Shown here piece by piece: positions 6,650-26,883 of a stretch of DNA of 64,000 nucleotides. The notes under the pieces are model-generated. The model was given only the letters and a program-made list of their open reading frames with translations, had not been told where the DNA came from and did no database searches. How positions within the stretch are numbered: the first letter of the stretch is position 1; the number at the start of each line of letters is the position of its first letter. The position numbers and the translations under genes are program-made. This DNA comes from a virus: positions 16,615-80,614 of IMG/VR virus record IMGVR_UViG_3300026488_000022; one strand, written 5' to 3'.

Positions 6650-6681
6650 CAGACTATCCTTTTGTAATAATTGCTACTAAA

Positions 6682-6690
6682 TATATCAGT
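6682..6690 (-). promoter_or_regulatory. Late promoter box (ACTGATATA) of tape measure gene
   Basis: ACTGATATA on the minus strand, 33 bases upstream of the tape measure ATG. It forms the left end of element A. Confidence 0.55.
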
Positions 6691-6852
6691 ATAAAATAAA
6701 AGTAAAATTTAATTTAAAAGCTCTATTATAATATATAATAACTTTAAGGGTTTGGACAGTGTTGGACAGTAACAAAAAGCCCTAAAATTCGGACTTTTAA
6801 CAACTTGCAAACATTTATAATCAGTAAAAAATATCATTTGGGCGGTCAAGAA
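6682..6852 (-). repeat. Dispersed regulatory element, copy A
   Basis: About 170 bp, nearly identical to copies at 18903-19074 and 26686-26860. In leftward order it has a terminator-like hairpin (6775-6798; AAAAGTCC pairs GGGCTTTT with one G-U), tandem 10-bp repeats TTTGGACAGT/GTTGGACAGT (6751-6770), a TATAAT box (6725-6730) and the late box. It therefore ends one leftward unit and starts the next. Together with the plus-strand promoter and leader that follow, the similarity to copy C extends about 275 bp, to the ATGAAA of the divergent gene. Confidence 0.8.
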
Positions 6853-6878
6853 CATTTTATAATTTTTGTAAAAAACTC

Positions 6879-6907
6879 TTGACATAAAGTTAAAAGTGTT
6901 TTATAAT
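6879..6907 (+). promoter_or_regulatory. Sigma-70 promoter of moron genes at 6945
   Basis: TTGACA (6879-6884), 17-base spacer, TATAAT (6902-6907): full consensus, opposite in direction to the late genes. The same promoter and leader recur at 19101, 24657 and 26884. Confidence 0.85.
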
Positions 6908-6944
6908 TCTTAGCATAAAACAAAAAACAAAAGGAGAATTGAAA

Positions 6945-7331
6945 ATGAAAACTACATTTATAAACACAAGAGCAGATTTAGAAAAAATGCTAAAAGAAAC
7001 AAACAAAGAACTTGCTCTTAAATACTTAGAAATATTTAAAAATAGAATAATTTGGGGACAAGCTGAAAAATTTGACAATAATTATTATATAGACATTACA
7101 TTATTTGAAGACACTGATAGCATAAAAAGAGTTAAAGTATCAAAACCAATATTAGAAAATTCAGAGGATGTTCAAAGGTTTATTATGTTTTGTCTTGATG
7201 AAAAAGATTATATTCATTATTCGAATATAATCACTGATAAAAAACTAATAGGTTTTATAAATGAATTTTATTTAGACTTAATCTCTTATCACCATTTAAA
7301 AGATGAATTAACAAAGGAAAACAATGAATAA
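6945..7331 (+). CDS. Hypothetical moron protein, 128 aa
   Basis: Function not recognised. A Lys/Glu-rich soluble protein with no membrane segment, reading MKTTFINTRADLEKML at the start. The ATG at 6945 is preferred over an in-frame TTG at 6939, because AGGAG lies 8 bases upstream and the same leader precedes the ATG of the gene at 19167. It overlaps the next gene by 8 bases, so the two form one small operon. It stands alone in the late arm on the opposite strand with its own host-type promoter, which suggests early expression and a host- or defence-directed role; that is inference. Confidence 0.7.
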   Translation: MKTTFINTRADLEKMLKETNKELALKYLEIFKNRIIWGQAEKFDNNYYIDITLFEDTDSIKRVKVSKPILENSEDVQRFIMFCLDEKDYIHYSNIITDKKLIGFINEFYLDLISYHHLKDELTKENNE

Positions 7332-7584
7332 TTATCCTATTCTTTCATTTAGAGTTTATAGTGTTATTTATAGGGCTTTAGAAAACAAAAAAGCTAAGAT
7401 AACATTAAAACACAAGAAAAAAGGCAATTTTAATGTAGAACATTACATAGTAGAAATTAACAACCCCACTTTAAAAGGAAGTGCTATTAGAACATACAAA
7501 CAATATTTTAAAGATAAAAATTTAGAAAAATTTAAAGAAATAATAAATAAAAATGAAAAGATAATTTTTGAAAAGTTTGAGTAA
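7324..7584 (+). CDS. Hypothetical moron protein, 86 aa
   Basis: Second gene of the plus-strand pair, translationally coupled to the first by an 8-base overlap. It is small and basic with many lysines and no recognised domain. It is followed at once by a stem-loop terminator (7586-7603) that separates it from the convergent capsid gene. Confidence 0.7.
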   Translation: MNNYPILSFRVYSVIYRALENKKAKITLKHKKKGNFNVEHYIVEINNPTLKGSAIRTYKQYFKDKNLEKFKEIINKNEKIIFEKFE

Positions 7585-7585
7585 A

Positions 7586-7603
7586 GGGCAGATTTTTCTG
7601 CCC
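7586..7603 (+). terminator. Terminator between moron operon and capsid gene
   Basis: GGGCAG, loop ATTTTT, CTGCCC: a perfect 6-bp GC-rich stem placed 2 bases after the stop of the 86-aa gene and 12 bases from the stop of the convergent capsid gene. It could serve both directions. Confidence 0.6.
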
Positions 7604-7614
7604 CCTCAAACGTT

Positions 7615-8823
7615 TTAGTTAGAAGCTACATTAACAATTACAGAAACAGGTGTAGAAGTTACAGAAAGTTTCTTAAAGTCAATATCTCTATATCCAACAT
7701 ATAGAGTTGTTGAACTAACTGCTTTTCTTTCAGTTTCAATTCCAATGTTTCCTCTATCAGCAACACCAAAATATGCTTTATTAACAAGTAAAACTGCTGT
7801 TTTGTCTCCATTTGTTTCATCAACATCACCATTAGCGTCAAGATTATCAGGGATATACTCAGTTACTACAATAGGCATACCAAATAATTTCCCAATCTCA
7901 CCTGTGATAATTGTAGCTTTAGCACCATATTTATCAATTGTTAGAACTTCTGGAAGTTCAAGCATTTGATATGCTACATTAACAGGCGCTACAATAGCAA
8001 GGTCACTTAAATTAATACCATAAACTCCAAGTAACCTTCTTGCTTGCGCTATAAGACTTGCAGTTACTGTATTTCCACCTGCATCAACTTTATTTCCAGC
8101 ACTTTTAGCGTATTTTAAAAGACCATCAAATGCTTTTTTAACATCATTAACATCAGAAATACCTGTATCACCCATTACAAGTGCGTCTTCTGTGGCTCTT
8201 GCAAGTGATTTTACAAGTTCTTGTCTAACAAGTTGTGTAATAGCTGTTACCATTTCTTTGTCTGCTTGGTCAGTTACTGCTAAAAGAGTTTTAAATCTTG
8301 AAGTTGCAAAACTCACTTTTGCACCATTAATTGCACTTTCAATTGCGTTATCACCAGGAGCAATCAAATAAGCTTTTGCTTTGTCTGTTTTTGCAGGAAT
8401 AGAGAACGTACTTCTATTATCAGGCATTCTAAATCTTTGAAATAATCCTTCAACTTTAAGGTCAAGTTCAAGTTCTTCAAGCACTCTATTTGAAAATTCC
8501 TCAGCAAGCCAACTTGCAATGTCTGCTGGTTTAATTGCTTTTTCAACAATAGGAGCAATCTCTTTAAACTCCTCAAAAGTCTCAACAGGTCTGCCTAATA
8601 GCTTTGATTTAATATGCAAATCAACTGCTTTTTCTCTTGCTTTTTCTACTTCTTTATCGTCATAAGCTTTTGTTTCAAATTGAGTTTTTCTGTTAGACCA
8701 TTTATCTTCAAATTCTTTTTTAAGTTCTTCTACTTTTTTTTCTGCTTCAGTTTTAGTAGAGTCAAGTTGTTTTTTAAGTTCTTCTACTTCTTTTTGTAGT
8801 GTAGAAATTGCTTCAATACCCAT
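7615..8823 (-). CDS. Major capsid protein, HK97 fold
   Basis: 402 residues forming the icosahedral shell. Residues about 5-50 are a charged coiled coil like the HK97 delta (scaffolding) domain, which the adjacent prohead protease would remove. The rest matches the phage_capsid family in length and pattern, including the ALVMGDTG and LLAVTDQADKEM stretches. Of two in-frame ATGs, the one at 8823 is chosen because AAAGGA lies 7 bases upstream of it and only 1 base from the ATG at 8829. A late box (8856-8863) precedes it. It lies downstream of protease, holin and spanins in one leftward unit. Confidence 0.93.
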   Translation of the reverse strand: MGIEAISTLQKEVEELKKQLDSTKTEAEKKVEELKKEFEDKWSNRKTQFETKAYDDKEVEKAREKAVDLHIKSKLLGRPVETFEEFKEIAPIVEKAIKPADIASWLAEEFSNRVLEELELDLKVEGLFQRFRMPDNRSTFSIPAKTDKAKAYLIAPGDNAIESAINGAKVSFATSRFKTLLAVTDQADKEMVTAITQLVRQELVKSLARATEDALVMGDTGISDVNDVKKAFDGLLKYAKSAGNKVDAGGNTVTASLIAQARRLLGVYGINLSDLAIVAPVNVAYQMLELPEVLTIDKYGAKATIITGEIGKLFGMPIVVTEYIPDNLDANGDVDETNGDKTAVLLVNKAYFGVADRGNIGIETERKAVSSTTLYVGYRDIDFKKLSVTSTPVSVIVNVASN

Positions 8824-8855
8824 AACCATATCCTTTAATGTTATTTTACAAAAGT

Positions 8856-8863
8856 TATATCGG
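8856..8863 (-). promoter_or_regulatory. Late promoter box (CCGATATA) of capsid gene
   Basis: CCGATATA on the minus strand, 33 bases upstream of the capsid ATG. It gives the most heavily needed structural gene its own late start. Confidence 0.55.
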
Positions 8864-8868
8864 AAAGT

Positions 8869-9033
8869 TTAATTAGATTTATTTTTAACAAATTTTTCAT
8901 TATATTCTTTTATTTGTTGATTTAAAAAATCATTAATCTTTTTCAAATCATTACGCTCTTTAACACAGATTTTATAACGATTAAAAAGTTCTTCAAATTC
9001 ATTTAGAGGAATTTCTATCATTTTCTTTTTCAT
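8869..9033 (-). CDS. Hypothetical small coiled-coil protein, 54 aa
   Basis: A 54-codon frame starting MKKKMIEIPLNEFEELF from an ATG at 9033, after an AAAGGT site. It overlaps the o-spanin gene by 35 bases and ends just before the capsid late box. It is highly charged and predicted helical, with no signal or membrane segment. No function recognised; its tight packing between the spanin and capsid genes supports it being real. Confidence 0.55.
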   Translation of the reverse strand: MKKKMIEIPLNEFEELFNRYKICVKERNDLKKINDFLNQQIKEYNEKFVKNKSN

Positions 9034-9211
9034 CTTTTACCTTTATATGTAAAGTAATAGGTTTTGTTTTTGTTATATTATATTCATAAGTTTGTAAAGC
9101 GGGACATTTAGACTTTACAAAAACATATTTAATTTTTTCGGTTTCTTTACAAGCACACCCACTAAGGAATAGTAATATTAACATCACGCTCAAAAGTAAT
9201 ATTTTTTTCAC
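8999..9211 (-). CDS. o-spanin (Rz1-like outer-membrane lipoprotein)
   Basis: A 70-residue protein with a hydrophobic signal and a lipobox ending at Cys19 (LSGC). It starts inside the preceding i-spanin gene (50-base overlap), the usual arrangement of Rz/Rz1 pairs. The product would be a short periplasmic lipoprotein that joins the inner-membrane spanin and fuses the two membranes in the last step of lysis. The pair implies a Gram-negative host. Confidence 0.8.
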   Translation of the reverse strand: MKKILLLSVMLILLFLSGCACKETEKIKYVFVKSKCPALQTYEYNITKTKPITLHIKVKDEKENDRNSSK

Positions 9212-9482
9212 TATTTTTTCCTTCTTTTTTTATTATTTCTTCTTTAATGTTTTGATATTTATCTTCAAATAAAATAACTTTTAAATCATTTTTAATTTTC
9301 TGTAATTTAACTTCTAAATTCTCTTTTTCTCTTTTTAGTTTTTTAATTTCTTTTTGTTTTACTAAAATTTGTTGTTCTAATTTTTTTACTTCTAAACGAT
9401 AATTAACAACTCCTGCTAATAAAACCAATACAATTCCACTTATAAAATAAGAAAACAATTTAGTTTTTAAAAAATCAAACAT
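9162..9482 (-). CDS. i-spanin (Rz-like)
   Basis: A 106-residue protein with one N-terminal membrane helix (about residues 10-28), then a long Lys/Glu/Leu coiled coil, as expected of an inner-membrane spanin with a periplasmic domain. It overlaps the holin-like gene upstream by 8 bases and the o-spanin gene by 50. Assignment rests on topology and gene order, not on sequence similarity I can name. Confidence 0.78.
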   Translation of the reverse strand: MFDFLKTKLFSYFISGIVLVLLAGVVNYRLEVKKLEQQILVKQKEIKKLKREKENLEVKLQKIKNDLKVILFEDKYQNIKEEIIKKEGKNSEKNITFERDVNITIP

Positions 9483-9696
9483 TTGAATTTTCCTTTAATT
9501 TTGATTTTTCATAACTTCTTCCAGCAATCCAAGCTATCGGAATACCCACAGCAATTGTAGTCCATAAACTTATCAAACTTTCTTTTAAATTTAAAACCCC
9601 AAAACCTTCAAGCAAAGTAATTAACGCACTAAAACACAGAACAAACCAAGACATTAAAGGTCTTGATGTGTTTCTAATTAATTCGACTTTATTCAT
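9475..9696 (-). CDS. Probable holin
   Basis: A 73-residue protein with two hydrophobic segments (about 14-35 and 42-60) and a charged tail ending in RSYEKSKLKE. It overlaps the protease gene by 8 bases and the i-spanin gene by 8, forming a lysis cassette. The layout resembles small 3TM-type phage holins. A second holin candidate lies at 28196-28507. No endolysin was found beside either. Confidence 0.65.
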   Translation of the reverse strand: MNKVELIRNTSRPLMSWFVLCFSALITLLEGFGVLNLKESLISLWTTIAVGIPIAWIAGRSYEKSKLKENSNV

Positions 9697-11104
9697 CTAA
9701 CTTAAGTTTCTCGTTAATAGTTTTTTCTATTTCCGTATAAACCTCAAACAATAAATTCACATCTTCTTTTTCTTTTAAAAATTTTAAAATTTCATCTTTT
9801 GTTAGTGCTTTTTCACTATTAACAGATTTTTTATTTCCTTGGTCATCTCTATCTGCAAAATACTTTTTCATAAAAGCTAATAGTTTTGCAACCTCACTTC
9901 TACCTATAATAAAATCATAAACATTTCCATCATCTTTAACATATCTTCTAATTCTATAACCTAAAGGTGGGTTAGGATAAGCTGTTAAAACACTGTTTTC
10001 AGTTACATTAACAATCAACTCACCTTGTTCTCCTCCTTGTAACTGACTTCCCTCCTCTGCACCTTGTGCATCACTAATAATTTGATTTACTTTATCTTTT
10101 CCTAAATTTGTAGTTCCTCCACGTTTAGCTTTTGTTTGCATATTTTCAACCTCCTTAATTTCAGAATAAACTTTTTCTACTTGTGACTCAAATTCTTTTA
10201 CCATATCTTGTAATTCTTGTGGTATTTCTCCTATCAGTTCCTGTTTTAACATTTCTTTATAATGTTTTAAAAGATGCCTTGCGGCATCTCTTTTTTCAAC
10301 AGCACTAATATTAGGATTGTTTCTTGCACCTCTTAGTGCTTGATAAGCCGCAATCACACCATTTTTATTAACTATTAAATCTTCACCTTGTAATTCGTGA
10401 TGAGGAAACTTCCAAGTACTTCTAAGTTCTGGGTCTCCTACAACTAAATACGCTTCTTTAATATAGTTTAATTTACCCATTTCAGCTAATTTTTGTCCTA
10501 AAGCAGTCTTATCTACTTCTGACCAAGGTTTAGTACTAATTACGTTATTTTTTATTGCTTTTTCTTTCATTTTTTTATTTCCTTTCTTATTGTAATTTTG
10601 TCTTGTTGAAAGCAAACAAACTCCACTTTCACAAGGACTGCTTTCTAAAACATTAAACAAGCTATCTTGATTATCTGGTATTGAAACGATACTAACTTCA
10701 TAAAGCTCAATTTTAGTCCAATACCAGATACCATTCACCTCTTTGTATTCAAGCCCTCTAAATCCAATTGAAAAAGCCTTTAAAATACCCTCTTTTACAG
10801 CTAAATAAACTTTTGGGTTTAAATCTTTATAAACAACAGCCTCAATTTCAAGCCCTTGAGCATTTAAATTAATATTAGTAACTTTACCAACAACATCACT
10901 TGGATTATGCTGATAAAGCAAAATAGGATTTTTCATATAGTTTTTTAAATCGTAACTTTCAGGCAAAACACTTTCGTCACTTCTATCAATAACCAAATTA
11001 CCGTTATCGTCGATATAACGATTAGCATATCCTTTTATTGTTATTTTTTCATCAGTAACTTCTGTTGAAAATTCTTTTATAATCAAATTTAAGTTTTTAT
11101 CCAT
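9689..11104 (-). CDS. Prohead protease with C-terminal extension
   Basis: 471 residues. Residues 1-165 match the HK97-type prohead serine protease: a His in YQHNP (about H66) and a Ser in AFSIGF (about S112), followed by the ELYEVSIVSIPDN strand. Residues about 185-320 hold a second module (PWSEVDKTALGQKLA to RHLLKHYKEM) that I have seen on other phage proteases. A Gln/Glu-rich tail follows. The ATG at 11104 is used rather than the adjacent TTG at 11107, because AAGGAG lies 5 bases upstream. It processes the capsid protein at 7615-8823. It is preceded by element B. Confidence 0.88.
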   Translation of the reverse strand: MDKNLNLIIKEFSTEVTDEKITIKGYANRYIDDNGNLVIDRSDESVLPESYDLKNYMKNPILLYQHNPSDVVGKVTNINLNAQGLEIEAVVYKDLNPKVYLAVKEGILKAFSIGFRGLEYKEVNGIWYWTKIELYEVSIVSIPDNQDSLFNVLESSPCESGVCLLSTRQNYNKKGNKKMKEKAIKNNVISTKPWSEVDKTALGQKLAEMGKLNYIKEAYLVVGDPELRSTWKFPHHELQGEDLIVNKNGVIAAYQALRGARNNPNISAVEKRDAARHLLKHYKEMLKQELIGEIPQELQDMVKEFESQVEKVYSEIKEVENMQTKAKRGGTTNLGKDKVNQIISDAQGAEEGSQLQGGEQGELIVNVTENSVLTAYPNPPLGYRIRRYVKDDGNVYDFIIGRSEVAKLLAFMKKYFADRDDQGNKKSVNSEKALTKDEILKFLKEKEDVNLLFEVYTEIEKTINEKLKLDE

Positions 11105-11128
11105 CAAAACTCCTTAAAACTTTTATAT

Positions 11129-11136
11129 TATATCGT
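11129..11136 (-). promoter_or_regulatory. Late promoter box (ACGATATA) of protease-capsid unit
   Basis: ACGATATA on the minus strand, 25 bases upstream of the protease ATG. It forms the left end of element B. Confidence 0.5.
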
Positions 11137-11275
11137 CTTAAAAAATTCTATTATAATATATAAATAACTTTAAGGGTTTGGACACTTTGGACAGTAACAA
11201 AAAGCCCTAAAATTCGGACTTTTAACAACTTGCAAACATTTATAATTAGTAAAAAATATCATTTCGGCGGTCAAG
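11129..11275 (-). repeat. Dispersed regulatory element, copy B
   Basis: Same order as copy A: hairpin (11200-11223), TTTGGACAC/TTTGGACAG direct repeats (11177-11194), TATAAT box (11150-11155), late box. The match stops after GGCGGTCAAGA at 11275, so this copy lacks the plus-strand promoter and moron leader. Confidence 0.75.
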
Positions 11276-11307
11276 AGGTTTTTATAAAAAGAGAGAAAAG
11301 AAAAGAT

Positions 11308-11805
11308 TTATACTCCAACAAAAGCGTGGTTAATAAACACAATCAATTGGTCTTGGTCAGTAACATCAAAAGCCTCATCAAATAAAAAATGGTTTAAAGC
11401 TTCAGTAGGATTATCTGGGTCATCTACTAAAGCACCTTCTATAACTCCATTTGCGACTACTTCACCTACGTCATATGTTATTTTATATGTTATAACATTT
11501 TCCCCTCCATTAGTATTTCCTTCATCTGTATAGTTTCTTTGGGGGAAACCACTATCGACAATTCTTGAACTTGGGTCTATATAAGCATTAACATCAGTAT
11601 CGTCTTTTGTAGGGTTTGAACTATCCGTTCCTAACCTTAAATATAAAGTATCTAATGAACTTGTTTCACCTATAATTTTTTTAGCATAATGAATATCCCC
11701 AGCATTTGTTACTATATTATGCCCTTTAATTATTTTTTCTTTTCCTGTTTTTTTATTAATTATTTTTACTAAAATATTATCTTTTACAATTCCTTTTACT
11801 AACAC
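11308..11805 (-). CDS. Putative virion structural protein, 165 aa
   Basis: Begins with GTG at 11805, after AAAGGAG at 7-base spacing. Residues about 28-60 (HNIVTNAGDIHYAKKIIG) resemble a pattern I associate with phage tail-associated proteins. The sequence is beta-rich and acidic with no membrane segment. It has its own late box and sits between the tail chaperones and the displaced head block. A structural role is inferred from context; the specific function is unknown. Confidence 0.6.
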   Translation of the reverse strand: MLVKGIVKDNILVKIINKKTGKEKIIKGHNIVTNAGDIHYAKKIIGETSSLDTLYLRLGTDSSNPTKDDTDVNAYIDPSSRIVDSGFPQRNYTDEGNTNGGENVITYKITYDVGEVVANGVIEGALVDDPDNPTEALNHFLFDEAFDVTDQDQLIVFINHAFVGV

Positions 11806-11831
11806 TTTAAAACTCCTTTAATCTTTACATT

Positions 11832-11839
11832 TATATCAG
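11832..11839 (-). promoter_or_regulatory. Late promoter box (CTGATATA)
   Basis: CTGATATA on the minus strand, 27 bases upstream of the GTG at 11805. It overlaps the stop codon of the preceding chaperone gene. Confidence 0.5.
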
Positions 11840-12519
11840 AAACTGCTTTCTTTGTTGTTTTTTTGTAATTCTTTCATTTCCTCTTGTTGTATCTTATCAT
11901 AAAGTTTTAAACTTGCTAAATAAAAAAATTTAGTCTGGTCGTATAAACCGCCCTCATCTGGTAGAAAACCTTTTTCAAAAGCGTTATAACATTCAATAGC
12001 TTCTGCAATTAACTTTTTATCTACATCATAAATAGGACAATATGTATAGACTTTATCTCCAACATAAACTTTAAAATCTTTTTTCTTGTTTTTTTCTCCT
12101 CTAAAACCACAATTTCTAACTCTATCAAGTCTTTTTGCTTTACAAACTTCACATTTCCAAGTTTCAGCTTTAAATTTACTATCAAAATAAATATCAATAC
12201 TATCATAAAGTTTATTTAGCACCTCTAAAGTAACATCGCTCACTTCAAAAATAAACTTACCTACTTCTTTAATAGTATCTGAAGATAAAAAAGAGAAAGG
12301 CAATTCAACTCCCTTTTTATCTTCTATTTTTACAACTGAAAATTTAAGAGCGTAATAATATAATTTTAAAACCTCACCGTTTAACATATAAGGCTCAAGT
12401 GAGTTAATTTCCCTATAAGATAACGTTCTTAGCATTAATTCTAAATTAGGTTGAGAATTTGGAGTAATAAAGTGAATTACCTTATGACTTTTAACATTAT
12501 TTATCATCCTCTTCTTCAC
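11836..12519 (-). CDS. Probable second tail assembly chaperone-type protein
   Basis: 227 residues from a GTG at 12519, or 223 from an ATG at 12507. It overlaps the end of the first chaperone gene by 23 bases. Position, between tail tube and tape measure in canonical order, matches the G/GT chaperone pair. It has an unusual cysteine group (WKCEVC at about 122, then RNCGF and YCP), possibly a zinc site. Whether it is made independently or as a frameshift fusion cannot be told: the overlap shows no obvious heptanucleotide slip site. Confidence 0.55.
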   Translation of the reverse strand: MKKRMINNVKSHKVIHFITPNSQPNLELMLRTLSYREINSLEPYMLNGEVLKLYYYALKFSVVKIEDKKGVELPFSFLSSDTIKEVGKFIFEVSDVTLEVLNKLYDSIDIYFDSKFKAETWKCEVCKAKRLDRVRNCGFRGEKNKKKDFKVYVGDKVYTYCPIYDVDKKLIAEAIECYNAFEKGFLPDEGGLYDQTKFFYLASLKLYDKIQQEEMKELQKNNKESSF

Positions 12520-12907
12520 CTAAGTAAAGTTTTGCATTTTCTGGGTCTTTAGAAATTCCTACAATTACATTTGCAATTTCAGTTATAAATGAAATAGGAA
12601 GATAATTTAAAGTTTCATCAGAAATACCGATAGTATCCCTATTAATAGGAATTTCTCTATTTCTCTCATCAAGTAAATTCCTCCAATCTACTATTCCTCT
12701 TTTGCAAACTTCCCAATTATAAGAACCGGTAGAAACACTAATACTTTCATCTTTATTTAACCTAACCATTTTATCTTCAATCTCAATGAGTTCTTTTGGA
12801 GTTAAAGGTCTAATTTCAACTGTAAAAGGGTCTTTTTCTCCTCTTTCTAAGATAGGAACATATCTATAAGTTATATCCTTTTTAGCTCTATCAATTCTAA
12901 TTGCCAT
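12497..12907 (-). CDS. Tail assembly chaperone
   Basis: 136 residues with the pattern of phage tail assembly chaperones: an N-terminal strand region with EIRPLTPKELIEIEDK, then TGSYNWEVCKRGIVDW, ending in a helical ISFITEIANVIVGIS segment. It lies immediately downstream of the tail tube gene and is followed by an overlapping second frame, as in many siphoviruses. It has no late box of its own and probably depends on read-through from the tail tube unit. Confidence 0.75.
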   Translation of the reverse strand: MAIRIDRAKKDITYRYVPILERGEKDPFTVEIRPLTPKELIEIEDKMVRLNKDESISVSTGSYNWEVCKRGIVDWRNLLDERNREIPINRDTIGISDETLNYLPISFITEIANVIVGISKDPENAKLYLGEEEDDK

Positions 12908-12953
12908 TTATTATCCTTTATTAATTAAATTTAGTTAATAAAGCACACAAAAA

Positions 12954-14279
12954 TTATTTGTGTGCTAAATAGAATGCCTCACCTAAAACTGGATGTTCAT
13001 ATGCCTCAAACTCAAGTTTATTTGCAAGAACACCATCATCATCTTCTACACTTACACTTGTGTATTTGATATATGGTAACCAAATTGCAAATTTATGTTT
13101 TTGTGTTTCATCGTCAGTTTCAGTTTTCATTTCAAGGAAAAACTCTGCTGTTTGATTATTTTTGAATTTGTTAAGCTCATCCCAATTTTCAAAAGTAACA
13201 GTCATACTACCTTTAACTGTTTTTTTAGTGATAATTTTCCTCATAATACCAGAACTTGTAATAGCCTCTCTATCAGAAACTTGATTTTCGATTGTTATTT
13301 CAACATCTTTACCTTCATAAGTTTTACCATCAACTGTAAGAACTGCATTTTTACCAACATATGGTATTGTTGTTAAATATTGATTTGAAAGCAAAGGTTC
13401 ATTTTCTGCTGTTTCAAAAGAACTTGCTCCTAAATCAATTGACAATGTTGCAATATCTGCAACAGGAAAACTAAATTTAACTGAATTTGGAACTGCACCT
13501 TTTAGTGTTAAACTTCTACTATCAGTCTCATCACACCCATACATCAATTTAACAGCTAAAGATTGTTCCTGACCACAAGGCTTAGCGAGTTTATATAAAA
13601 CAGCATCCCCTGTTTCGCCTTCTTGAACTTCGTAGATTTGATAAGCAACATTACTAACAACATCAATTGTGAATTTATCTCCTACTGCAAAGTCAGTAGA
13701 GCCACTAACAATTTTAAATTTAATAATACCGTTGTCATAATCAACACCTGTTGTTGCCTCAGCTTGTGTGCCACTTTCAGTTCCTTCAACACTCCAAACC
13801 TCAGCACCTGCTGTATCTGCATTTATACACTCAATAGTCCAAGTTTCAGTTTTAATAGTGTCTTCATAATACCCAAAATTAGTTAAGTTACCGTCCCCTG
13901 TGTTTCCACTATCAGCTGTGATAGTACTTTCAACTTGAGGGGCTTTGTTTGCTCTAATTACAGCCCCTGTACCAGACCCTGCCTCTTCTCTAATACCTAA
14001 TGCTACTTCTAAAACTACATTACCTGCTAAATCATTACTTCCATCTCCTAATGGAATTAGCTCAAATGCTAATGTCCCACTACCAAATTCTTTACCCGGT
14101 AATGCAGGAGCAGTAATATAAGAGTTTCTTACAACTTTTCTTTCAATAACGTCAATTTCTGGTTTTAATGCACTATCAGATGTAACTTCAACAACATCAC
14201 TGTCTGTAAATGTACCACCTTTATTAAATTCTGCTTCTTTAATAACCGCATAAAGAGTAGATAAAGTTTTATATGCCAT
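12954..14279 (-). CDS. Major tail tube protein
   Basis: 441 residues, upstream of the chaperones and tape measure as expected for the tube subunit. N-terminal and C-terminal parts (about 1-110 and 215-441) look like a tail tube fold. Residues about 118-212 are an inserted module with TETWTIEC, WSVEGTESG, YDNGIIKF and VGDKFTIDV, shared with two other structural proteins here. The downstream SNVAYQIYEVQEGETG stretch is also shared with the paralogue at 15303-17024. It has its own late box (14311-14318). Confidence 0.82.
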   Translation of the reverse strand: MAYKTLSTLYAVIKEAEFNKGGTFTDSDVVEVTSDSALKPEIDVIERKVVRNSYITAPALPGKEFGSGTLAFELIPLGDGSNDLAGNVVLEVALGIREEAGSGTGAVIRANKAPQVESTITADSGNTGDGNLTNFGYYEDTIKTETWTIECINADTAGAEVWSVEGTESGTQAEATTGVDYDNGIIKFKIVSGSTDFAVGDKFTIDVVSNVAYQIYEVQEGETGDAVLYKLAKPCGQEQSLAVKLMYGCDETDSRSLTLKGAVPNSVKFSFPVADIATLSIDLGASSFETAENEPLLSNQYLTTIPYVGKNAVLTVDGKTYEGKDVEITIENQVSDREAITSSGIMRKIITKKTVKGSMTVTFENWDELNKFKNNQTAEFFLEMKTETDDETQKHKFAIWLPYIKYTSVSVEDDDGVLANKLEFEAYEHPVLGEAFYLAHK

Positions 14280-14310
14280 TTTACCTTCCTTTTATTTATT
14301 CTACAAAAAT

Positions 14311-14318
14311 TATATCGG
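14311..14318 (-). promoter_or_regulatory. Late promoter box (CCGATATA) of tail tube gene
   Basis: CCGATATA on the minus strand, 32 bases upstream of the tail tube ATG and just after the stop of the 325-aa gene. Confidence 0.55.
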
Positions 14319-14325
14319 ATAGGTA

Positions 14326-15303
14326 TTATTCACCTTCGATAATACCTTCACCTGCTAATTTTATCGGACTTTTCACCACAGGATTTAACACCCTGTATTT
14401 TACATTCAATTTATCAAAACCTTCTTCTGTTATTATTTTAGTTTCTATTATTTCAATTTCTGGTAATTCTATACCATAAGAAAATTGAACATTTTTATTA
14501 TTAATTTCAAAAAATGACACTTCTTTACTTAGATAATCAATTTCAGCTAAATTTAAAGTTCTGTTAAAAAATCTTGTCTGGTCAAATAAAGCCTTAGTAT
14601 AAGATTTATTACTCATAGGAGGCAAGAAAGCATAATTTCTTTTTGCACATAAAATATAAGATACTTTTACTCCGTTTTCAAATTCAATTGTTAGTTTATT
14701 TTGATAAAGCTCTTTTAAACCTACAAAATATAAAAATTCAATATTAAATACTTTTTCGGTATTAGGATTTATTACATCTCCTATATTAATACCTTTAATT
14801 TGAATACCATAAACATTTAACAAATTAATACTTTTAACTTTTAAATCTTCCTTATAACCATTAACAAACTTAACTTCAACAACTTTACTAATATCATCAG
14901 TTAAATCCACTTCAACCCAAAAATTGCCTTTAAAAACACCTTTACTCCAGATTAAATTTTCTTTTAAAGTATCCTTAATAAGATAAAAATTGTCTTTTAT
15001 TTCTGTCTGAATAATTTTGTTTTCTAATTTATAACCATAAACTGTTAATTTTTTAAGTTTTTGTTGAGGTTTAACAAAATAAGTAGAATATAAAACACTA
15101 TAATAATTACAATTTTTTAAATTAATTTTATAATTGCAACTTTTAACAGAAGTTACATTTCCTTCTAAGGCTTTTAATAACTTATAAGAAACACTTTCAT
15201 TAATACTTTCGTTTTCTAAATTATAAACTCTTAATTTTGCATTAACAAAATTTTTATCACCTATATTTGTGTTTTCATTTATATACTTATTTATAGTAGC
15301 CAT
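14326..15303 (-). CDS. Putative minor tail protein, 325 aa
   Basis: Starts at an ATG overlapping the stop of the tube paralogue (TAATG), with AAGGA 7 bases upstream, so translation is coupled. The sequence is beta-rich. Near residue 237 it has SYTKALFDQTRFFNRTLNLA, which resembles the closing strand of LamG domains (DDVRIFNR...L). The LamG domain of the preceding protein ends without that strand, so the two may form one composite surface feature. That is inference; no family is recognised. Confidence 0.55.
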   Translation of the reverse strand: MATINKYINENTNIGDKNFVNAKLRVYNLENESINESVSYKLLKALEGNVTSVKSCNYKINLKNCNYYSVLYSTYFVKPQQKLKKLTVYGYKLENKIIQTEIKDNFYLIKDTLKENLIWSKGVFKGNFWVEVDLTDDISKVVEVKFVNGYKEDLKVKSINLLNVYGIQIKGINIGDVINPNTEKVFNIEFLYFVGLKELYQNKLTIEFENGVKVSYILCAKRNYAFLPPMSNKSYTKALFDQTRFFNRTLNLAEIDYLSKEVSFFEINNKNVQFSYGIELPEIEIIETKIITEEGFDKLNVKYRVLNPVVKSPIKLAGEGIIEGE

Positions 15304-17024
15304 TACAATTTCCTTGCTAAATTACCTATTTTAAATATCTTATCAGTTAAATCAATATCAGGTAGATATCCCCACAAAACTTTTTCACTATTAACATAAA
15401 CTTCTACATATTTTTCTTCTTTATAAAAGATAAGTGTATAAAAAAGCCACTCTTGTAAATTATATTTTTTATCACTTATAGTTTGCCCATCTAAATAAAT
15501 ATAATTTCCATTTTTAACAATATAAACATAGATTTTTCCGTTTGGGTGCATTCCTAAGCCAAGTCCGTTTTGCTCTTCATAATTACTTAAAATTAAACGT
15601 TCATAACCATTCAAATAAAACCAGCCACTAACGGAAAAATCGCTATTAGGAATAGGAACATTTGTTTTTACCCCCGAATAACCTTCTAAAACCACTGCTT
15701 TATGTAGATAACCTTTTTCATAATAACCGGGATATTCCTCATTAATCCATTCCCCTAAATAAACTTCTTCTTCATCGTTTAAATTTTCTTCAAACCTAAA
15801 CAATCCTACACAACTACCATCACCAAAAATATCTTTTATTTTTTCAGTTCCTTCTTGTTTATAATGCCCTACTAAAACTTCTGAACTTATACTATAATAT
15901 AAAGAGGCTTTAAAATCATTACTTAAAGCTTCTTTAATTAAATCAAAACATTTAATATCAGTTACAAATTCACCGTATCCGATTTTATCAACTACTTCAA
16001 AATCTTTTATTCCGTTTTTACTATTTATAGTATTAATCTCTTTTAATTTATTTTCTAAAACAAATTGAAACCTCTCAACATTATAATTTTCACCAGAAAT
16101 ATTAAAACAACCATATTGTTGATAAATTTCAGTCAAAAATACCTCTCTAAAAGGCTCTCTTAAAAATTCATTCTTATGAAATATATATTCAGGAGATTTT
16201 AATTCAAATATGAGTTCAGGAGTATTATTAACATCAAACAACATAGTAAATTTAGAAACAACAGCTTTTTTTAATTCAATCGCACAAGTGTCGTCTCCAC
16301 AATAATATCCCATTAATAAATCAACCTTCGGTAACTCACTACATTTCATTGAAGGTTTATATAAAAAAGCACTTCCTAATTCTCCTGCTTGTACTTCATA
16401 AATCTGACAAGCTACATTTGAAGTTATATTTATTGTAAAATAATCACCAACATTGTATTCAAATTCGTCTGAAATTAAAACTTTAATAATTTCATTAAAA
16501 TAATCTTTTCCTGTTATGGCATTGTGTTTCCAACCACTTTCACTACCATAAACAGACCACTTTTTATCTCCTAAATATTCAAATGTCCAAACTTCAGTTT
16601 TTACATTAAAAGCAACATAATCTAATAATTGAACTTTTTTATTAATGCTTTCTATTGTATCACTCTCTATTTCATATTCAATTCTCGGATATTTATTAGC
16701 ATTTAAAATCCCTCCACTACTAATACCGGGTATCTGCCTTTCTCCAAAGACACTATAAAAAAGCTCATTATTCACATTATCAAAAACTTTATTATAAACA
16801 AAAGGTAAAAGAGATGTTTTAACGATAGCTGACCCGTTGCTTTTTCCTAAAACTTTCTTTTTATCAAAAAAATAAGTTTTACTTTTATTTCTGTCAATTT
16901 TAGTAAAATCAATATTTACTAAACTTCCGCTTTTAAATTCAATCAAGTCATTAGCAACAAAAAAATCATTACGTTCATTATCACTTCTTTTAACTGCTAT
17001 TATTTTAACTGACTCTTTTTTCAA
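15303..17024 (-). CDS. Tail tube paralogue fused to a LamG-like domain
   Basis: 573 residues from a TTG at 17024, with AAAGGA 6 bases upstream. Residues about 115-300 align by eye with the major tail tube protein: TEVWTFEY, KWSVYGSESG, VGDYFTINI, then NVACQIYEVQAGELGSAFLY and a CGDD stretch. Residues about 385-573 form a LamG/concanavalin-like domain (GSCVGLFRFEENLNDE, DFSVSGWFYLNG, EWLFYTLIFYKEEK). It could be a minority tube subunit or an initiator/terminator ring that displays a carbohydrate-binding domain. Confidence 0.65.
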   Translation of the reverse strand: MKKESVKIIAVKRSDNERNDFFVANDLIEFKSGSLVNIDFTKIDRNKSKTYFFDKKKVLGKSNGSAIVKTSLLPFVYNKVFDNVNNELFYSVFGERQIPGISSGGILNANKYPRIEYEIESDTIESINKKVQLLDYVAFNVKTEVWTFEYLGDKKWSVYGSESGWKHNAITGKDYFNEIIKVLISDEFEYNVGDYFTINITSNVACQIYEVQAGELGSAFLYKPSMKCSELPKVDLLMGYYCGDDTCAIELKKAVVSKFTMLFDVNNTPELIFELKSPEYIFHKNEFLREPFREVFLTEIYQQYGCFNISGENYNVERFQFVLENKLKEINTINSKNGIKDFEVVDKIGYGEFVTDIKCFDLIKEALSNDFKASLYYSISSEVLVGHYKQEGTEKIKDIFGDGSCVGLFRFEENLNDEEEVYLGEWINEEYPGYYEKGYLHKAVVLEGYSGVKTNVPIPNSDFSVSGWFYLNGYERLILSNYEEQNGLGLGMHPNGKIYVYIVKNGNYIYLDGQTISDKKYNLQEWLFYTLIFYKEEKYVEVYVNSEKVLWGYLPDIDLTDKIFKIGNLARKL

Positions 17025-17025
17025 A

Positions 17026-17433
17026 TCAAATCCTTTTAATATACCTAACTTCTATATCTATCTTTGCAATAGCATAAGGATGAACTATCCCACCTTCTCT
17101 TTTCATACTACTCACTGTCATATCAACAACACCCATAGGTTGCCATCTAATATCCTCTACAACCTCATAAACAACATCAATTAAATCACTTAATATATCC
17201 TCATATTTATTTCTATGTTGTTTATTAAACACATAAACACTAATGTTACCAATATAATAAGCTTTTCTATTTGTTAAATTGTCTCTTTCTTTTTCCTCAC
17301 TTTCATAAATCACACTAACAGCCGGAAATCTGTCTATTTGAGACCATAAAGGAACTATATTTTTATAAAACTTAACAAACAAATTCTTATCTTTTAAGCC
17401 TTGGACTATTTTCTCTACAATTTCTTTTCTCAT
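17026..17433 (-). CDS. Putative tail terminator/tail completion protein
   Basis: 135 residues, in the slot between a gp10-like protein and the tube genes where siphoviruses encode the tail terminator. The beta-alpha pattern (FPAVSVIYESEE, AYYIGNISVYVFN, AIAKIDIEVRYI) fits that family. Its ATG overlaps the stop of the 28-codon microgene (ATGA). Confidence 0.55.
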   Translation of the reverse strand: MRKEIVEKIVQGLKDKNLFVKFYKNIVPLWSQIDRFPAVSVIYESEEKERDNLTNRKAYYIGNISVYVFNKQHRNKYEDILSDLIDVVYEVVEDIRWQPMGVVDMTVSSMKREGGIVHPYAIAKIDIEVRYIKRI

Positions 17434-17516
17434 AATGAAAACCCTTTTAAAAATTCAATACATAACATCAATAAAATTACAAAATAAAATAAATTAGTAC
17501 TTTTTTTAATTATCAT
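17430..17516 (-). CDS. 28-aa membrane microprotein
   Basis: A 28-codon frame reading MIIKKSTNLFYFVILLMLCI and onward, essentially one membrane helix with a basic start. Its ATG overlaps the upstream stop as ATGA and its own stop overlaps the next ATG as ATGA. An AAGGAG site lies 5 bases upstream. Double overlap plus a strong ribosome site argues for real translation. Function unknown; coupling translation of the tail terminator is one possible role. Confidence 0.6.
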   Translation of the reverse strand: MIIKKSTNLFYFVILLMLCIEFLKGFSL

Positions 17517-17998
17517 ATCAGCTCCTTAGACTCTTTTAAAATCAATTCAAATAAATCTCCTACTGAAGTGATATTACCTCTACCTTTATCAAACAAAACA
17601 TCATACATCCAATCTTTCCAATAAGGCACTTTTCCATCTTTTCTTTGGGGTTTTGCCATATCAGTAAATTTAGCATAAGGCACTCCTATTTCTGCCCAAC
17701 TATGAATTATAAAACTTTCTCCTTTTTTATAACTCTCAACCTTTGTTTTAATACTATTAACTTGATTTCCACTAATTTTATAAGTAAATCTTCTTTTTAA
17801 CGGTCTTCTTTTATGGAGGTATTCAACAGGAATAGGAGTACCTAATGCTCTTTTAAGTGCTTTTTTCCAAGCTTTTAAATCTAAATCAAGATTTTTTGCT
17901 AAAAGTTCTAATTTATGAAAAGATAAATCGGGTAATTCTTTTTTAAGCCCTACCCAAGCCTCCCCGACTGATTTTTTTATCCTCACATTAGCTATCAT
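17513..17998 (-). CDS. HK97 gp10-like tail completion protein
   Basis: 161 residues with basic N-terminal helices and a C-terminal strand region containing SFIIHSWAEIGVPYAKFTDM, reminiscent of head-tail joining proteins that end with an 'ehG...py...' pattern. It is coupled by overlap to the connector gene upstream and to the microgene downstream. The call rests mainly on position between connector and tail terminator. Confidence 0.55.
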   Translation of the reverse strand: MIANVRIKKSVGEAWVGLKKELPDLSFHKLELLAKNLDLDLKAWKKALKRALGTPIPVEYLHKRRPLKRRFTYKISGNQVNSIKTKVESYKKGESFIIHSWAEIGVPYAKFTDMAKPQRKDGKVPYWKDWMYDVLFDKGRGNITSVGDLFELILKESKELI

Positions 17999-18552
17999 AA
18001 TCTAAATACCCTAAAAGAATTTAACATTTTATCTACAACAGCAGGAACTTCATCATTAACTTTCATACTTTCTCTAATGCCTGTGGATAAAGAAGCTATG
18101 TTATCTGTATCTTTTGTTACGTCATTATAAAGTTTTTTTCCTAATAACAATAAACCTGATACCAACCCCTCAGGTATTAAATCAATATCATTATAACCTA
18201 CCTTATATTCAATTCGCATAATCTGATAGTTCTCTATTGAAAATAAAACAGGCAGATAAATTCTATTTAATTCTCCTATTTCAAAACTTAATAACACATC
18301 ATTTTCAAGCTCCTCGCCATCAATCGTTATTTTTATAATTTCACTTATTAGACCTTTTTTTGTATAAATAGAGTTACCATAAATTTTATTAATGCGCTCA
18401 ACTAAATCTCTTTCAAAAATTCCCACATTATAATAGTCATAAATATAACTCTCACTTATAATTAATATTTCTTTTAACAATTCATCTATTTCATCATCTT
18501 GAATATCTAAAACTTTTTTAAACTCTATTAACAAATCATCTATAAGAGCCAT
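17995..18552 (-). CDS. Head-tail connector (gp6-like adaptor)
   Basis: 185 residues, mostly helical, with an N-terminal four-helix-like region (LIDDLLIEFKKVLDI; DDEIDELLKEILIISES) and a central strand part, as in HK97 gp6-type adaptor proteins. It is the first clear gene of the neck module, after the 92-aa gene. It shares a 4-base ATGA overlap with the next gene. Confidence 0.6.
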   Translation of the reverse strand: MALIDDLLIEFKKVLDIQDDEIDELLKEILIISESYIYDYYNVGIFERDLVERINKIYGNSIYTKKGLISEIIKITIDGEELENDVLLSFEIGELNRIYLPVLFSIENYQIMRIEYKVGYNDIDLIPEGLVSGLLLLGKKLYNDVTKDTDNIASLSTGIRESMKVNDEVPAVVDKMLNSFRVFRL

Positions 18553-18592
18553 AACTTATCCTTTTATAAAACTTACAATTTTAGACCAAAAA

Positions 18593-18871
18593 TCAACTAT
18601 TTTCTTTTTTAGACTTTGCTTTTCTTTTCCTCGTTTGACTTTTGGTATGTAATTCGCTTGTGGTTTCCCTCTCTTTACGAAGTAACTCCTTTTTAGAATT
18701 TTTAGTCGTATCTTTAATCTTTTCTATTAAAACAAATTCTTTTGGAAAAGTAGAAAGCAGATATTTACCAAGCTCTTCATCTACAACATACAAACCATCA
18801 TATCTATTAGGACTAAATAAAATCCCTCTAACCATAATACCTTTACCGATAACTTTAATTTTATATTTCAT
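18593..18871 (-). CDS. Hypothetical basic protein, 92 aa, in neck module
   Basis: The first half is compact and beta-rich (KYKIKVIGKGIMVRGILFS). The last 30 residues are strongly basic (KSQTRKRKAKSKKENS) and likely disordered, suggesting nucleic-acid or capsid contact. It starts the leftward unit behind element C and its late box. No family recognised. Confidence 0.55.
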   Translation of the reverse strand: MKYKIKVIGKGIMVRGILFSPNRYDGLYVVDEELGKYLLSTFPKEFVLIEKIKDTTKNSKKELLRKERETTSELHTKSQTRKRKAKSKKENS

Positions 18872-18902
18872 TATAAATCCTTTTAATAAATGTATTTACT
18901 TA

Positions 18903-18910
18903 TATATCAG
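18903..18910 (-). promoter_or_regulatory. Late promoter box (CTGATATA) of neck/tail unit
   Basis: CTGATATA on the minus strand, 32 bases upstream of the ATG at 18871. It forms the left end of element C. Confidence 0.55.
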
Positions 18911-19074
18911 TATAAAATAAAAGTAAAATTTAATTTAAGAATTCTATTATAATATAATAATAACTTTAAGGGTTTGGACACTTTTGGACAGTAGCAGAAA
19001 GCCCTAAAATTCGGACTTTTAACAACTTGCAAACATTTATAATCAGTAAAAAATGTCATTTCGGCGGTCAAGAG
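18903..19074 (-). repeat. Dispersed regulatory element, copy C
   Basis: Hairpin (18998-19019), 10-bp-spaced TTTGGACA repeats, TATAAT box (18946-18951) and late box in the same order as copy A. Similarity to copy A continues through the plus-strand promoter and leader to the ATGAAA at 19167. It separates the portal gene from the neck genes, which is where the protease-capsid block would normally lie. Confidence 0.8.
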
Positions 19075-19100
19075 TTTTTTATAATTTTTGTAAAAAACTC

Positions 19101-19129
19101 TTGACATAAAGTTAAAAGTGTTTTATAAT
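19101..19129 (+). promoter_or_regulatory. Sigma-70 promoter of 41-aa moron gene
   Basis: TTGACA (19101-19106), 17-base spacer, TATAAT (19124-19129). Nearly identical to the promoter at 6879. Confidence 0.85.
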
Positions 19130-19166
19130 TCTAAGCATAAAACAAAAAACAAAAGGAGAATTGAAA

Positions 19167-19292
19167 ATGAAAAGAGATTTTAATATTTTAAAAATATATC
19201 AAAGAGAAATAAATTGCAGACCAAAAGTTGTTAAAAACAAAAAGAAATATACAAGGAAAGTAAAGCATAAAAAAGCTTTACTAAACTTTTAA
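19167..19292 (+). CDS. 41-aa basic moron protein
   Basis: A frame of 41 codons starting MKRDFNILKIYQREI, with about 13 Lys/Arg in the second half. It has a perfect promoter, AAAAGGAG and an ATG at the same spacing as the gene at 6945. Its stop overlaps the end of the convergent portal gene by 12 bases. It might be a remnant left when a longer moron cargo was lost, or a real small basic protein; function unknown. Confidence 0.6.
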   Translation: MKRDFNILKIYQREINCRPKVVKNKKKYTRKVKHKKALLNF

Positions 19293-20615
19293 ATCAGGCT
19301 CACCACCAAGTGGGTCTGTGCTTCCTACATTTGTAGGTTTGTTTTGCCCTTCTGAACTATTTTGACTCATTTTTACTAAATCTTGAAAGAATTGTGCTTC
19401 ACTTCCTGTTAAAAATGCAGGAACAACATTTTTGTCAGCTCCTTCAAAATCCATTTCTGGTAAATCAACTAAATCTCTTGCCTCATTTAATGTAGCAAGT
19501 CCTGTTGCAAACAATGTTCTTGCACTATCAGCTTTTACATCAAGTGCAGTATCAAGTTCTGTTATTCTTCCAAAATCAAACTCAAAATAATATTTTCCAT
19601 AACCAAATTGTTTCCCTAAAAAGAGATTAATTTGGTCTTGTATTCTATAAAGATAAGGTCTGACTGCAGTATTAAAAACAACTTTCATTAATTCTTGAGG
19701 TTTTCCTGCACTTTTATCTTCTCCTCCTAAAACAAGAGAATTTAATTTAAAAACTCTTAAAACTCTTTTTTCACTTATATCAAGGCTATCTAATAACATT
19801 GCGTCTCTTGGACTTGCTTGTACTGTTTTATAATCCATTTTAGCGGGTAAAACAGCAATTCCTCTTCTCTCACTTCCTCCTTTACCATATAAAGCATTGA
19901 ATTGGTCTCTTAATTCATCTATTTGTTGAGGTGTTAGAGCATATTCTGCTTTTAAAATACCAGCTAAAATTACACTACCCTCATAAAACTCTTTTAAACT
20001 ATCAATAGCGTCCTTTTCTAAAGTTAAAGTGTCAAGTAAAGGTGCTACACTCGGCAAACCGTAATATGCATTATTTAATGTTGGGTTAATAATCCAAATA
20101 AGTTCGTTTTCTTTATAAGCAATTTGGTCATTATAAATATACCCTTTAATAAATTTAGAGGCGTCAGGTACAACTTGCACTAAATGTGGTTGGGTTAAAA
20201 ACCAAGTTTCATAACTTCCTTTAACGTTTTCAAAAGTTAAAGGCGCTACCCCTGAAAGTAATAAACCTTGAATTGCAAGTTCAATTATAACTCCCCAGGA
20301 CCAAAAAGGATTTGGTCTATATTCCCATTCTGCTAATTTTTTATCTTTAACAGGCAGTTTTTTACCCGATTTATCTAACCTATAAAGTCTTGGGATTGCT
20401 TGTCCTCCAGCTTTTGCGATATAATCAACTGCACTAAAAACAAGCTCACTTGTATGAAAAGTGTTTTCCATTCCACTTGTAGCAAGTTGATTGTTACCTA
20501 ATTTATAATCCTCAGCTATTTTTTTATTTGCTTTTGTTGCCTTTGTGTCCATATAAACTATTGTTTGTTTTTCTGTTTTTATATCCTTAGGTTTTAAAAA
20601 ATCAAATAATCCCAT
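19281..20615 (-). CDS. Portal protein (HK97 family)
   Basis: 444 residues. The N-terminus MGLFDFLKPK, the SAVDYIAKAGGQAIPRLYRL region, WEYRPNPFWSW, the LNNAYYGLPSVAPLLD clip-side segment and a C-terminal part with TGLATLNEARDLVDLPEMD follow the phage_portal family closely. It forms the dodecameric channel at the capsid vertex, through which terminase pumps DNA. The start follows AAAGGA, with a late box at 20647-20654. Confidence 0.93.
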   Translation of the reverse strand: MGLFDFLKPKDIKTEKQTIVYMDTKATKANKKIAEDYKLGNNQLATSGMENTFHTSELVFSAVDYIAKAGGQAIPRLYRLDKSGKKLPVKDKKLAEWEYRPNPFWSWGVIIELAIQGLLLSGVAPLTFENVKGSYETWFLTQPHLVQVVPDASKFIKGYIYNDQIAYKENELIWIINPTLNNAYYGLPSVAPLLDTLTLEKDAIDSLKEFYEGSVILAGILKAEYALTPQQIDELRDQFNALYGKGGSERRGIAVLPAKMDYKTVQASPRDAMLLDSLDISEKRVLRVFKLNSLVLGGEDKSAGKPQELMKVVFNTAVRPYLYRIQDQINLFLGKQFGYGKYYFEFDFGRITELDTALDVKADSARTLFATGLATLNEARDLVDLPEMDFEGADKNVVPAFLTGSEAQFFQDLVKMSQNSSEGQNKPTNVGSTDPLGGEPDLKV

Positions 20616-25291: not shown

Positions 25292-26650
25292 TTACACGAC
25301 CTGAATTTGTAAATTTTGCAATTTCCACCACCCACTTGTTAAATACCTTAAAGCACCTACGGACAAATCAAAATGTCCGTCCTTGTTTCTTTCTATTGTT
25401 TTTCCATTGCTATTTTCTTTCCAATGAGCTAATTTTAATTCTTCAATCAATTGCATACAATTTTCTGATATGAATAATTTTCCTTTTTGAAATGCCGTGT
25501 TAATGTCCCTAATGCTTTCTACTAATTGAATTGGTGCGGGTTGTGTATAGTAACTATAACTATACGCCATATCTGCCATTGTCAAACTTGCACTTGGGTC
25601 ACAAAATCTTACAATCTGCATATCAGGATTTTCACAATATCTTTGTTCTATTTCTCTAAAATGTTTAATGTGCCATTCAATAGGCATTTGCCCCGCCATA
25701 TATTCATCTAAAACATAAATATTACCAGTCATTGGCTCTATCCAAGCCATAACAAAACTTGTATTGTCCCTAAAACCAATATCAATTCCTACTGCAAACG
25801 TATCTTTTGTTGTCATTTTATTTTTTAAATCACTAACTCTAAATACATTTTTTTCTAAATCAAAAGCATAAAATACCTGCAAATCCTCACTAAACCCACT
25901 TTGAAACTCACATAAATATTCTTGTTCAAAACTTCTTTTATCAAGTTTTGCTTTTATTGACTCAATCATTTCTTTTGTTATCATAGGATTATCATAAACT
26001 GTAACTTTTTTACAAAAATAATCGTTTCTTTGCCCACATCTTTTCCATAACTTATAAAAATCATTATCAAAAGTTCTTGGTGTTCCTATAAAATAAGTTT
26101 TAGAAAACATAAAGCCGTTTTCATCAGTACCATAATCGTTTTGTGCTGGTGAAATGTAGGTTTCCCAAATTTCAAGAACATTATTTATACTCGCAGTTTC
26201 ATCAAAAATAACTAAACTGAATTTATCTCCAAGTGCATTTTCATAATTTTTTTCTGTAACTACACGAAATTTAGCACCATTTTCTAATGTAAATGTTAAA
26301 CCTTTCATATCCTTTGATTTAAAAGGTAATTGTAGTTTATTTACATCTTTTTCAACATTACTAAAAATAGCTTGTGCATTTGCAAATGTAGGTGTTACTA
26401 ATAATATACTTGCATTAGGAATTAAAAGTTCTGACAATGCAATTTTTGACATAATTGTAGATTTACCTGCCCTTCTTGACATTAAAAAAACACCAACATT
26501 AAAATCAGCTTTTTGTATCCTATCAATTATCTCTTGTTGATATTTTGTAGGTGTAAATTCTAACAATTTTAATACTTTATTATAATCAATTTTTCTTTTT
26601 ACTTTTTTATAAAGTTCTATTTCTTGATTTACAGGTTTAAATTCTGACAT
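25292..26650 (-). CDS. terL: Terminase large subunit
   Basis: 452 residues. The ATPase domain has Walker A SRRAGKST (58-65) and Walker B LVIFDE (146-151). The RNase H-like nuclease domain has an acidic residue in VGIDIGFRD (about D290), CDPS near 355 and GHFDLSVGALRY near 430. It powers DNA packaging through the portal and cuts the concatemer. It is preceded by element D and a late box (26686-26693). The small subunit lies upstream, beyond a moron gene. Confidence 0.95.
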   Translation of the reverse strand: MSEFKPVNQEIELYKKVKRKIDYNKVLKLLEFTPTKYQQEIIDRIQKADFNVGVFLMSRRAGKSTIMSKIALSELLIPNASILLVTPTFANAQAIFSNVEKDVNKLQLPFKSKDMKGLTFTLENGAKFRVVTEKNYENALGDKFSLVIFDETASINNVLEIWETYISPAQNDYGTDENGFMFSKTYFIGTPRTFDNDFYKLWKRCGQRNDYFCKKVTVYDNPMITKEMIESIKAKLDKRSFEQEYLCEFQSGFSEDLQVFYAFDLEKNVFRVSDLKNKMTTKDTFAVGIDIGFRDNTSFVMAWIEPMTGNIYVLDEYMAGQMPIEWHIKHFREIEQRYCENPDMQIVRFCDPSASLTMADMAYSYSYYTQPAPIQLVESIRDINTAFQKGKLFISENCMQLIEELKLAHWKENSNGKTIERNKDGHFDLSVGALRYLTSGWWKLQNLQIQVV

Positions 26651-26685: not shown

Positions 26686-26693
26686 TATATCAG
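26686..26693 (-). promoter_or_regulatory. Late promoter box (CTGATATA) of terL
   Basis: CTGATATA on the minus strand, 36 bases upstream of the terL ATG. It forms the left end of element D. Confidence 0.5.
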
Positions 26694-26860: not shown

Positions 26861-26883
26861 TTTATAATTTTTGTAAAAAACTC

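Follow-up and report, generated by a model that had tools for sequence, protein, structure and literature searches.

We examined a window of 64,000 nucleotides (nt), positions 16,615 to 80,614 of the 80,614-bp record IMGVR_UViG_3300026488_000022 (hereafter G000), from an uncultivated bacterial virus in which copies of a repeated intergenic element separate the late structural genes and two adjacent blocks of these genes stand in exchanged order. It was compared with two complete, circular relatives, IMGVR_UViG_3300026488_000026 (G001) and IMGVR_UViG_3300026484_000333 (G002). On the - strand of G000, the late genes run from the terminase through genes without assigned function to the portal gene, then, past copy C of the element, to the neck, tail terminator, tail, and chaperone genes, past copy B to the protease, three small lysis-type genes, and capsid gene, and finally, past two morons on the + strand and copy A, to the tape measure gene. 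We refer to the neck-to-chaperone genes as block X and to the protease-to-capsid genes as block Y. The gene calls, in window coordinates, are as follows:

725-6649, - strand, tape measure protein gene (PHROG tape measure families, best E 1.1e-25), collinear with G001 and G002; the unmoved left neighbor
6945-7584, + strand, two small moron genes (128 and 86 amino acids)
7615-8829, - strand, block Y, major capsid protein (MCP; PHROG major head protein, 1.4e-10)
8999-9696, - strand, block Y, three small lysis-type genes: lipoprotein/o-spanin-like, coiled-coil i-spanin-like, and holin-like
9689-11107, - strand, block Y, head maturation protease (PHROG protease, 7.6e-29, residues 5-157)
11308-18871, - strand, block X, chaperones, a tail tube-like gene, tail terminator, and neck genes (PHROG terminator, 3.3e-12; minor tail, 9.7e-23)
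19167-19292, + strand, moron for a 41-amino-acid basic protein, its end overlapping the portal stop
19281-20615, - strand, portal protein gene (PHROG portal, 8.5e-53); the unmoved right neighbor
25292-26650, - strand, terminase large subunit (TerL)

These PHROG calls bear out a preliminary description of the stretch that had placed a protease-lysis-capsid block between the chaperones and the tape measure gene, and by sequence the structural module is T5-like (Demerecviridae-like). The MCP shares 90-93% amino acid identity with those of G001 and G002, and the protease is probably fused to a scaffold-like region. The lysis-type genes show hydrophobic segments and a lipobox-like LSGC, and one of them (8999-9211) matches Rz-like spanins in PHROG at 9e-4; they do lie in block Y, as described, but they hold the same position in G001 and G002, and their place between protease and capsid is thus ancestral in the near relatives and no anomaly. 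The two morons at 6945-7584 have no Pfam matches and are absent from both relatives. The very basic 41-amino-acid protein is kept across the group at differing places (window 19167-19292; 47985-48086 in G002; 52464-52565 in G006, described below; 44559-44651 in G004). Within block X, two tail-region genes at 14326-17024, one with a weak laminin-G-like domain, are present in G002 and absent from G001.

Both relatives can be aligned to G000 along most of their genomes, generally at 74-92% nt identity, and are collinear with it in the structural region and nearly everywhere else, bar one exchange of adjacent blocks. In G001 and G002 alike, X (window 11.3-18.9 kb) adjoins the tape measure gene and Y (MCP, lysis genes, and protease; window 7613-11141) lies between X and the portal gene. 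The preliminary description had suggested looking for relatives with protease and capsid at the portal-neck junction, and these exist beyond G001 and G002: about 20 distant relatives that show the relevant genes (MCP 41-72% identical in amino acids) keep portal, protease, and MCP together, ahead of the tail genes, and Vibrio phage Thalassa, an annotated Demerecviridae phage, has the canonical order too. This shared order shows that the arrangement in G000 is derived. At the portal-neck junction of G000, where the block is absent, sits copy C, as had been described. The exceptions among the distant relatives are the scrambled G006 and two contigs, IMGVR_UViG_3300000228_000028 and IMGVR_UViG_3300000233_000040, in which only the chaperone gene pair is inverted relative to its neighbors.

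G000 was assembled from a metagenome and has direct repeats at each of the three junctions, so its order might have been produced in assembly, by misjoining canonical segments at three similar repeats; an A-R-B-R-C-R-D graph is ambiguous if the repeat R collapsed, and the alternative joins yield exactly the canonical order. However, the ends of G000 repeat over exactly 127 nt, and the genome is therefore complete and circularly closed at 80.6 kb; G001 and G002 close with the identical overlap length, which would be the mark of an assembly graph with a final k of 127. There are no repeated 127-mers and no Ns in G000, and the longest exact matches among copies A, B, and C are 60, 57, and 46 nt (57 nt for the A-C pair), so such a graph should not have merged the copies. 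An artefact would moreover need all three junctions to be misjoined together, and we consider misassembly very unlikely.

Import of the head genes at a new site from a co-infecting relative, with loss of the old copy, is another conceivable origin, given that phage mosaicism is common and that a duplication by unequal crossing-over between two genomes would look identical if the partner was a sibling. Yet Y is 79-82% identical in nt to G001 and G002, X, Y, and their flanks are about equally diverged from the relatives (76-82%), and no remnant copy is left. Foreign import was rejected on the equal divergence, and an imported block is, in our estimate, extremely improbable.

The element that bounds the blocks belongs to a family of eight copies genome-wide. 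These copies, together with a gene that may be functionally linked to them, are:

685-726, - strand, box-only copy between the tape measure gene and the next gene; an insertion relative to G001 and G002
6681-6927, - strand, copy A, heading the tape measure gene (box 6740-6758)
11129-11287, - strand, copy B, heading the protease-capsid block, without the moron promoter
18903-19149, - strand, copy C, heading the neck genes (box 18962-18980)
26686-26932, - strand, copy D, upstream of TerL
28540-28657, - strand, copy E, truncated, upstream of the gene at 28196-28507
32185-32366, + strand, copy F, inverted, heading the + strand transcription unit that starts at 32428
7520-7701 of the G000 record, outside the window, a further copy
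62033-62635, - strand, sigma-factor-like gene (Pfam Sigma70_r2, 4e-7; PHROG sigma factor, 1.9e-9), with orthologs in G001 and G002 at 69-73%

Copies A and C align at 92.3% identity over 300 nt (E 2e-119) and B and C at 93% over 151 nt (E 1e-58), and C and D share 120 nt exactly. The three copies reported earlier are thus real, although the near-identity claimed for A and C over about 275 bp amounts to similarity at 92% and not to an exact match. Every copy sits just upstream of a late transcription unit and is oriented toward it. Read toward the gene, the shared part in G000 is TGTCCAAACCCTTAAAGTT, followed by a TATAAT-like sequence, and the window holds 7 occurrences of its core box, where 0.03 would be expected. 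In the full cassette, this 19-nt box adjoins a -10-like TATAAT and is preceded by a terminator-like hairpin; A, C, and D also hold a host-type promoter that diverges from the box toward a moron. A perfect sigma70 promoter, TTGACA-17-TATAAT (12/12 in A), appears only at A (6879-6907, + strand) and C (19101-19129) and faces the morons, divergent from the repeated box, which is aimed at late structural genes and has a -35 region that is not TTGACA. The hairpin, AAAAGUCC..GGGCUUUU, has a predicted energy of -9.8 kcal/mol (z -3.5) in G000 and -11.6 in the tape measure element of G002; no hairpin lies upstream of the box in G001, and a consensus terminator scan did not call the G000 copies. The element has no Rfam matches. 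Position and conservation suggest that the repeats are the late promoters of the phage. What had been described as dispersed repeats would then be not passive repeats but late-promoter cassettes, eight in the genome, and the sigma-like protein is our guess for the trans-acting partner that reads the box.

The box is the same within each genome and differs among the three. G001 carries TGTCCGAAGCCTTAAAGAA at 5 places and G002 carries TGTCCGGAGCCTTAAAGTT at 4, at partly the same units as in G000 (tape measure, TerL, F, and far left), and the tape measure and TerL elements of G001 are 98.4% identical over 127 nt. No other viral contig matched the G000 box in an exact scan, and a degenerate scan returned only G001 and G002 plus single chance-like matches, with no intermediate carrying an element at the protease/portal junction. 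A tree of the element cores is too short for firm support, though the boxes separate by genome. Sameness within and difference between genomes is concerted evolution and indicates that the copies recombine ectopically and are thereby homogenized. The usual causes of concerted evolution are a common trans-acting factor and ectopic gene conversion.

At all three breakpoints, flank homology reaches up to or into the elements. The left half of A is orthologous to the tape measure leader of G001 and G002, and the left half of C to their neck leader. The right half of B corresponds to a flank located in G002 between the element at the tape measure/chaperone junction and the last chaperone-side gene, whereas its left half is the protease leader and ends within a few nt of the ancestral portal stop codon, where the portal end resumes. 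The four element flanks that have counterparts in the relatives all match ancestral neighbors. When the tape measure/chaperone junction is rejoined in silico (6400-6749 + 11176-11600), it gives a single alignment of 792 columns with G001 and 614 with G002, and the rejoined protease/portal junction (10700-11141 + 19281-19700) gives one of 893 and 892 columns, respectively; the junctions as observed in G000 give alignments that split in two or break off. We read the rejoined junctions as empty-site evidence for the exchange. Of the ancestral junctions, that between tape measure gene and X carries an element (e1) in both relatives, and that between X and Y carries a box (e2) in G001; the chance of two of three breakpoints falling at element boundaries is about 0.02.

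The blocks could instead have been exchanged by illegitimate recombination at transcription-unit boundaries, with cassettes placed at the new junctions later through selection for transcription or gene conversion. That the protease/portal junction has no element in the relatives fits this course of events, as does the gain of elements in G000 at unrelated places (685-726 and E), by which cassettes spread without rearrangement. It requires, however, three breaks and subsequent insertions; an element was already present at two of the three ancestral junctions, and the left half of A and right half of B are clean halves of the ancestral e1. We judge this course unlikely.

We favor a real, derived exchange of the adjacent late units X and Y by homologous recombination among direct copies of the cassette, which we regard as probable. 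Several observations weigh against it. The third recombining element (e3, protease/portal) is absent in the relatives and is deduced from the derived genome. Aligning A, B, and C with their flanks, proposed earlier as a way to locate the crossovers, carries homology to or into the elements, but the homogenized copies hide the points inside them. As the elements head every late unit, their overlap with breakpoints is partly expected, because a break anywhere but at a unit boundary would probably not be viable. The late-promoter role of the box is predicted from sequence, and the exchanged order is known from one genome, as an assembled contig. Recombination between the repeats, as the preliminary description had it, is nevertheless a well-supported inference for two of the three ancestral junctions.

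In the proposed course of homologous exchange, the ancestor would have carried cassettes e1 (tape measure/X), e2 (X/Y), and e3 (Y/portal); e1, as it does in both relatives, would have lacked the moron. From these direct repeats, recombination would yield the order tape measure-A-Y-B-X-C-portal, either by e1 x e2 excision of one block and its reinsertion at e3 or by a tandem duplication on concatemers from which the redundant copies were later lost. The predicted flanks, A with e1-left/e2-right, B with e3-left/e1-right, and C with e2-left/e3-right, are those observed. The preliminary description had the protease-capsid block move; a derived rearrangement did occur, but it is an exchange of two adjacent blocks, and since excising Y or X yields the same product, gene order alone does not name the mover. 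Insertion of e3 before the exchange is plausible because G000 also gained other copies (685-726 and E). Neither protease nor capsid has its own box in the relatives, where both presumably rely on the unit upstream, whereas in G000 they are headed by B; this gain of a promoter may have made the protease-capsid block portable. The exchange may have been tolerated because each block took its own promoter to its new place.

In G006 (IMGVR_UViG_3300026531_000002; 46% MCP identity), analyzed less fully than G000, tail genes precede the portal gene and the tape measure gene precedes the terminase. A repeated leader of its own, unlike that of G000, occurs in G006 at about eight places and at several of these heads displaced units. 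As a tentative extension that we hold to be somewhat doubtful, late promoters in this phage group might form a self-homogenizing family that doubles as a recombination system and repeatedly permutes the order of morphogenesis genes, with G006 as a second independent outcome.

A group I intron (Rfam RF00028, 99.4 bits; window 49169-49437, - strand) interrupts the DNA polymerase gene, leaving the parts 49379-51220 and 48245-49162; the two halves are 28 nt apart in G001, about 310 nt in G002, and about 316 nt in G000. The thymidylate synthase gene (53957-55744, - strand) contains an HNH-type intein at residues about 152-471, starting with CVSGDTL and ending with VANGIVVHN before S, and is uninterrupted in G001 and G002. 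A bacterial genome scan for the host returned one contig only, from a Saprospiraceae-labeled metagenome-assembled genome, which is insufficient to name a host.

Among the closest parallels are the PeSL cassettes of T4-type phages, early promoters that reportedly reshuffle dispensable genes in the plastic regions of T4-like myoviruses. They too are reported to be intergenic repeated cassettes of promoter and stem-loop that serve as short homologies for gene reshuffling, and in G000 a predicted hairpin may likewise precede the promoter. The G000 cassette differs in being late-type, its repeated promoter not being an early sigma70 promoter, and in shuffling essential head and tail genes of a T5-like module; the structural genes match T5-like phages rather than T4-like myoviruses and include a long tape measure gene. 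Among Campylobacter group II phages, 28-55 kb modules are inverted between CP21 and CP220/CPt10 and are separated by repeat regions, arrays of many units that are 1-2.9 kb long (PMC4546147). As in G000, these are low-GC relatives with homologous modules in different arrangement, similar repeats between them, and structural genes affected (PMC4546147), whereas G000 has single 150-250-nt promoter cassettes bounding a 3.5-kb/7.6-kb exchange without inversion, and the 13-bp Campylobacter core AAACTTAAAGCAA is not enriched in it (1 one-mismatch match against 1.3 expected). The laboratory phage T7:LME underwent a spontaneous reciprocal block exchange with boundaries named by phage promoters, but it arose from an engineered displacement of gene 1 and stayed at low fitness (PMC3737178); the exchange in G000 is natural and within morphogenesis genes. 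Gene order is mostly conserved in herelleviruses (PMC7409376). Thalassa and other Demerecviridae have homologous portal, protease, and capsid proteins at 23-42% identity in genomes of 107-128 kb, in the order portal-protease-capsid-neck-terminator-tail-chaperone-tape measure, which G001 and G002 keep and G000 does not. Repeat-driven shuffling itself is known; G000 adds a natural case in which essential head and tail units were exchanged, probably at dispersed late-promoter cassettes.

Head and tail gene order ranks among the best-conserved traits of tailed phages, and either selection or a lack of opportunity may keep it fixed. In G000, a natural genome, this order is broken once and cleanly; close relatives still show the state before the exchange, and each cut bears a repeat. 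The case suggests that opportunity, in the form of repeated promoters heading each unit, can limit gene-order change, a question open to testing by setting phages that have a single late operon against those in which late promoters are many and repeated. A fixed gene order may thus be reshuffled without the loss of any gene, through cuts in the repeated switch of the phage's late genes.
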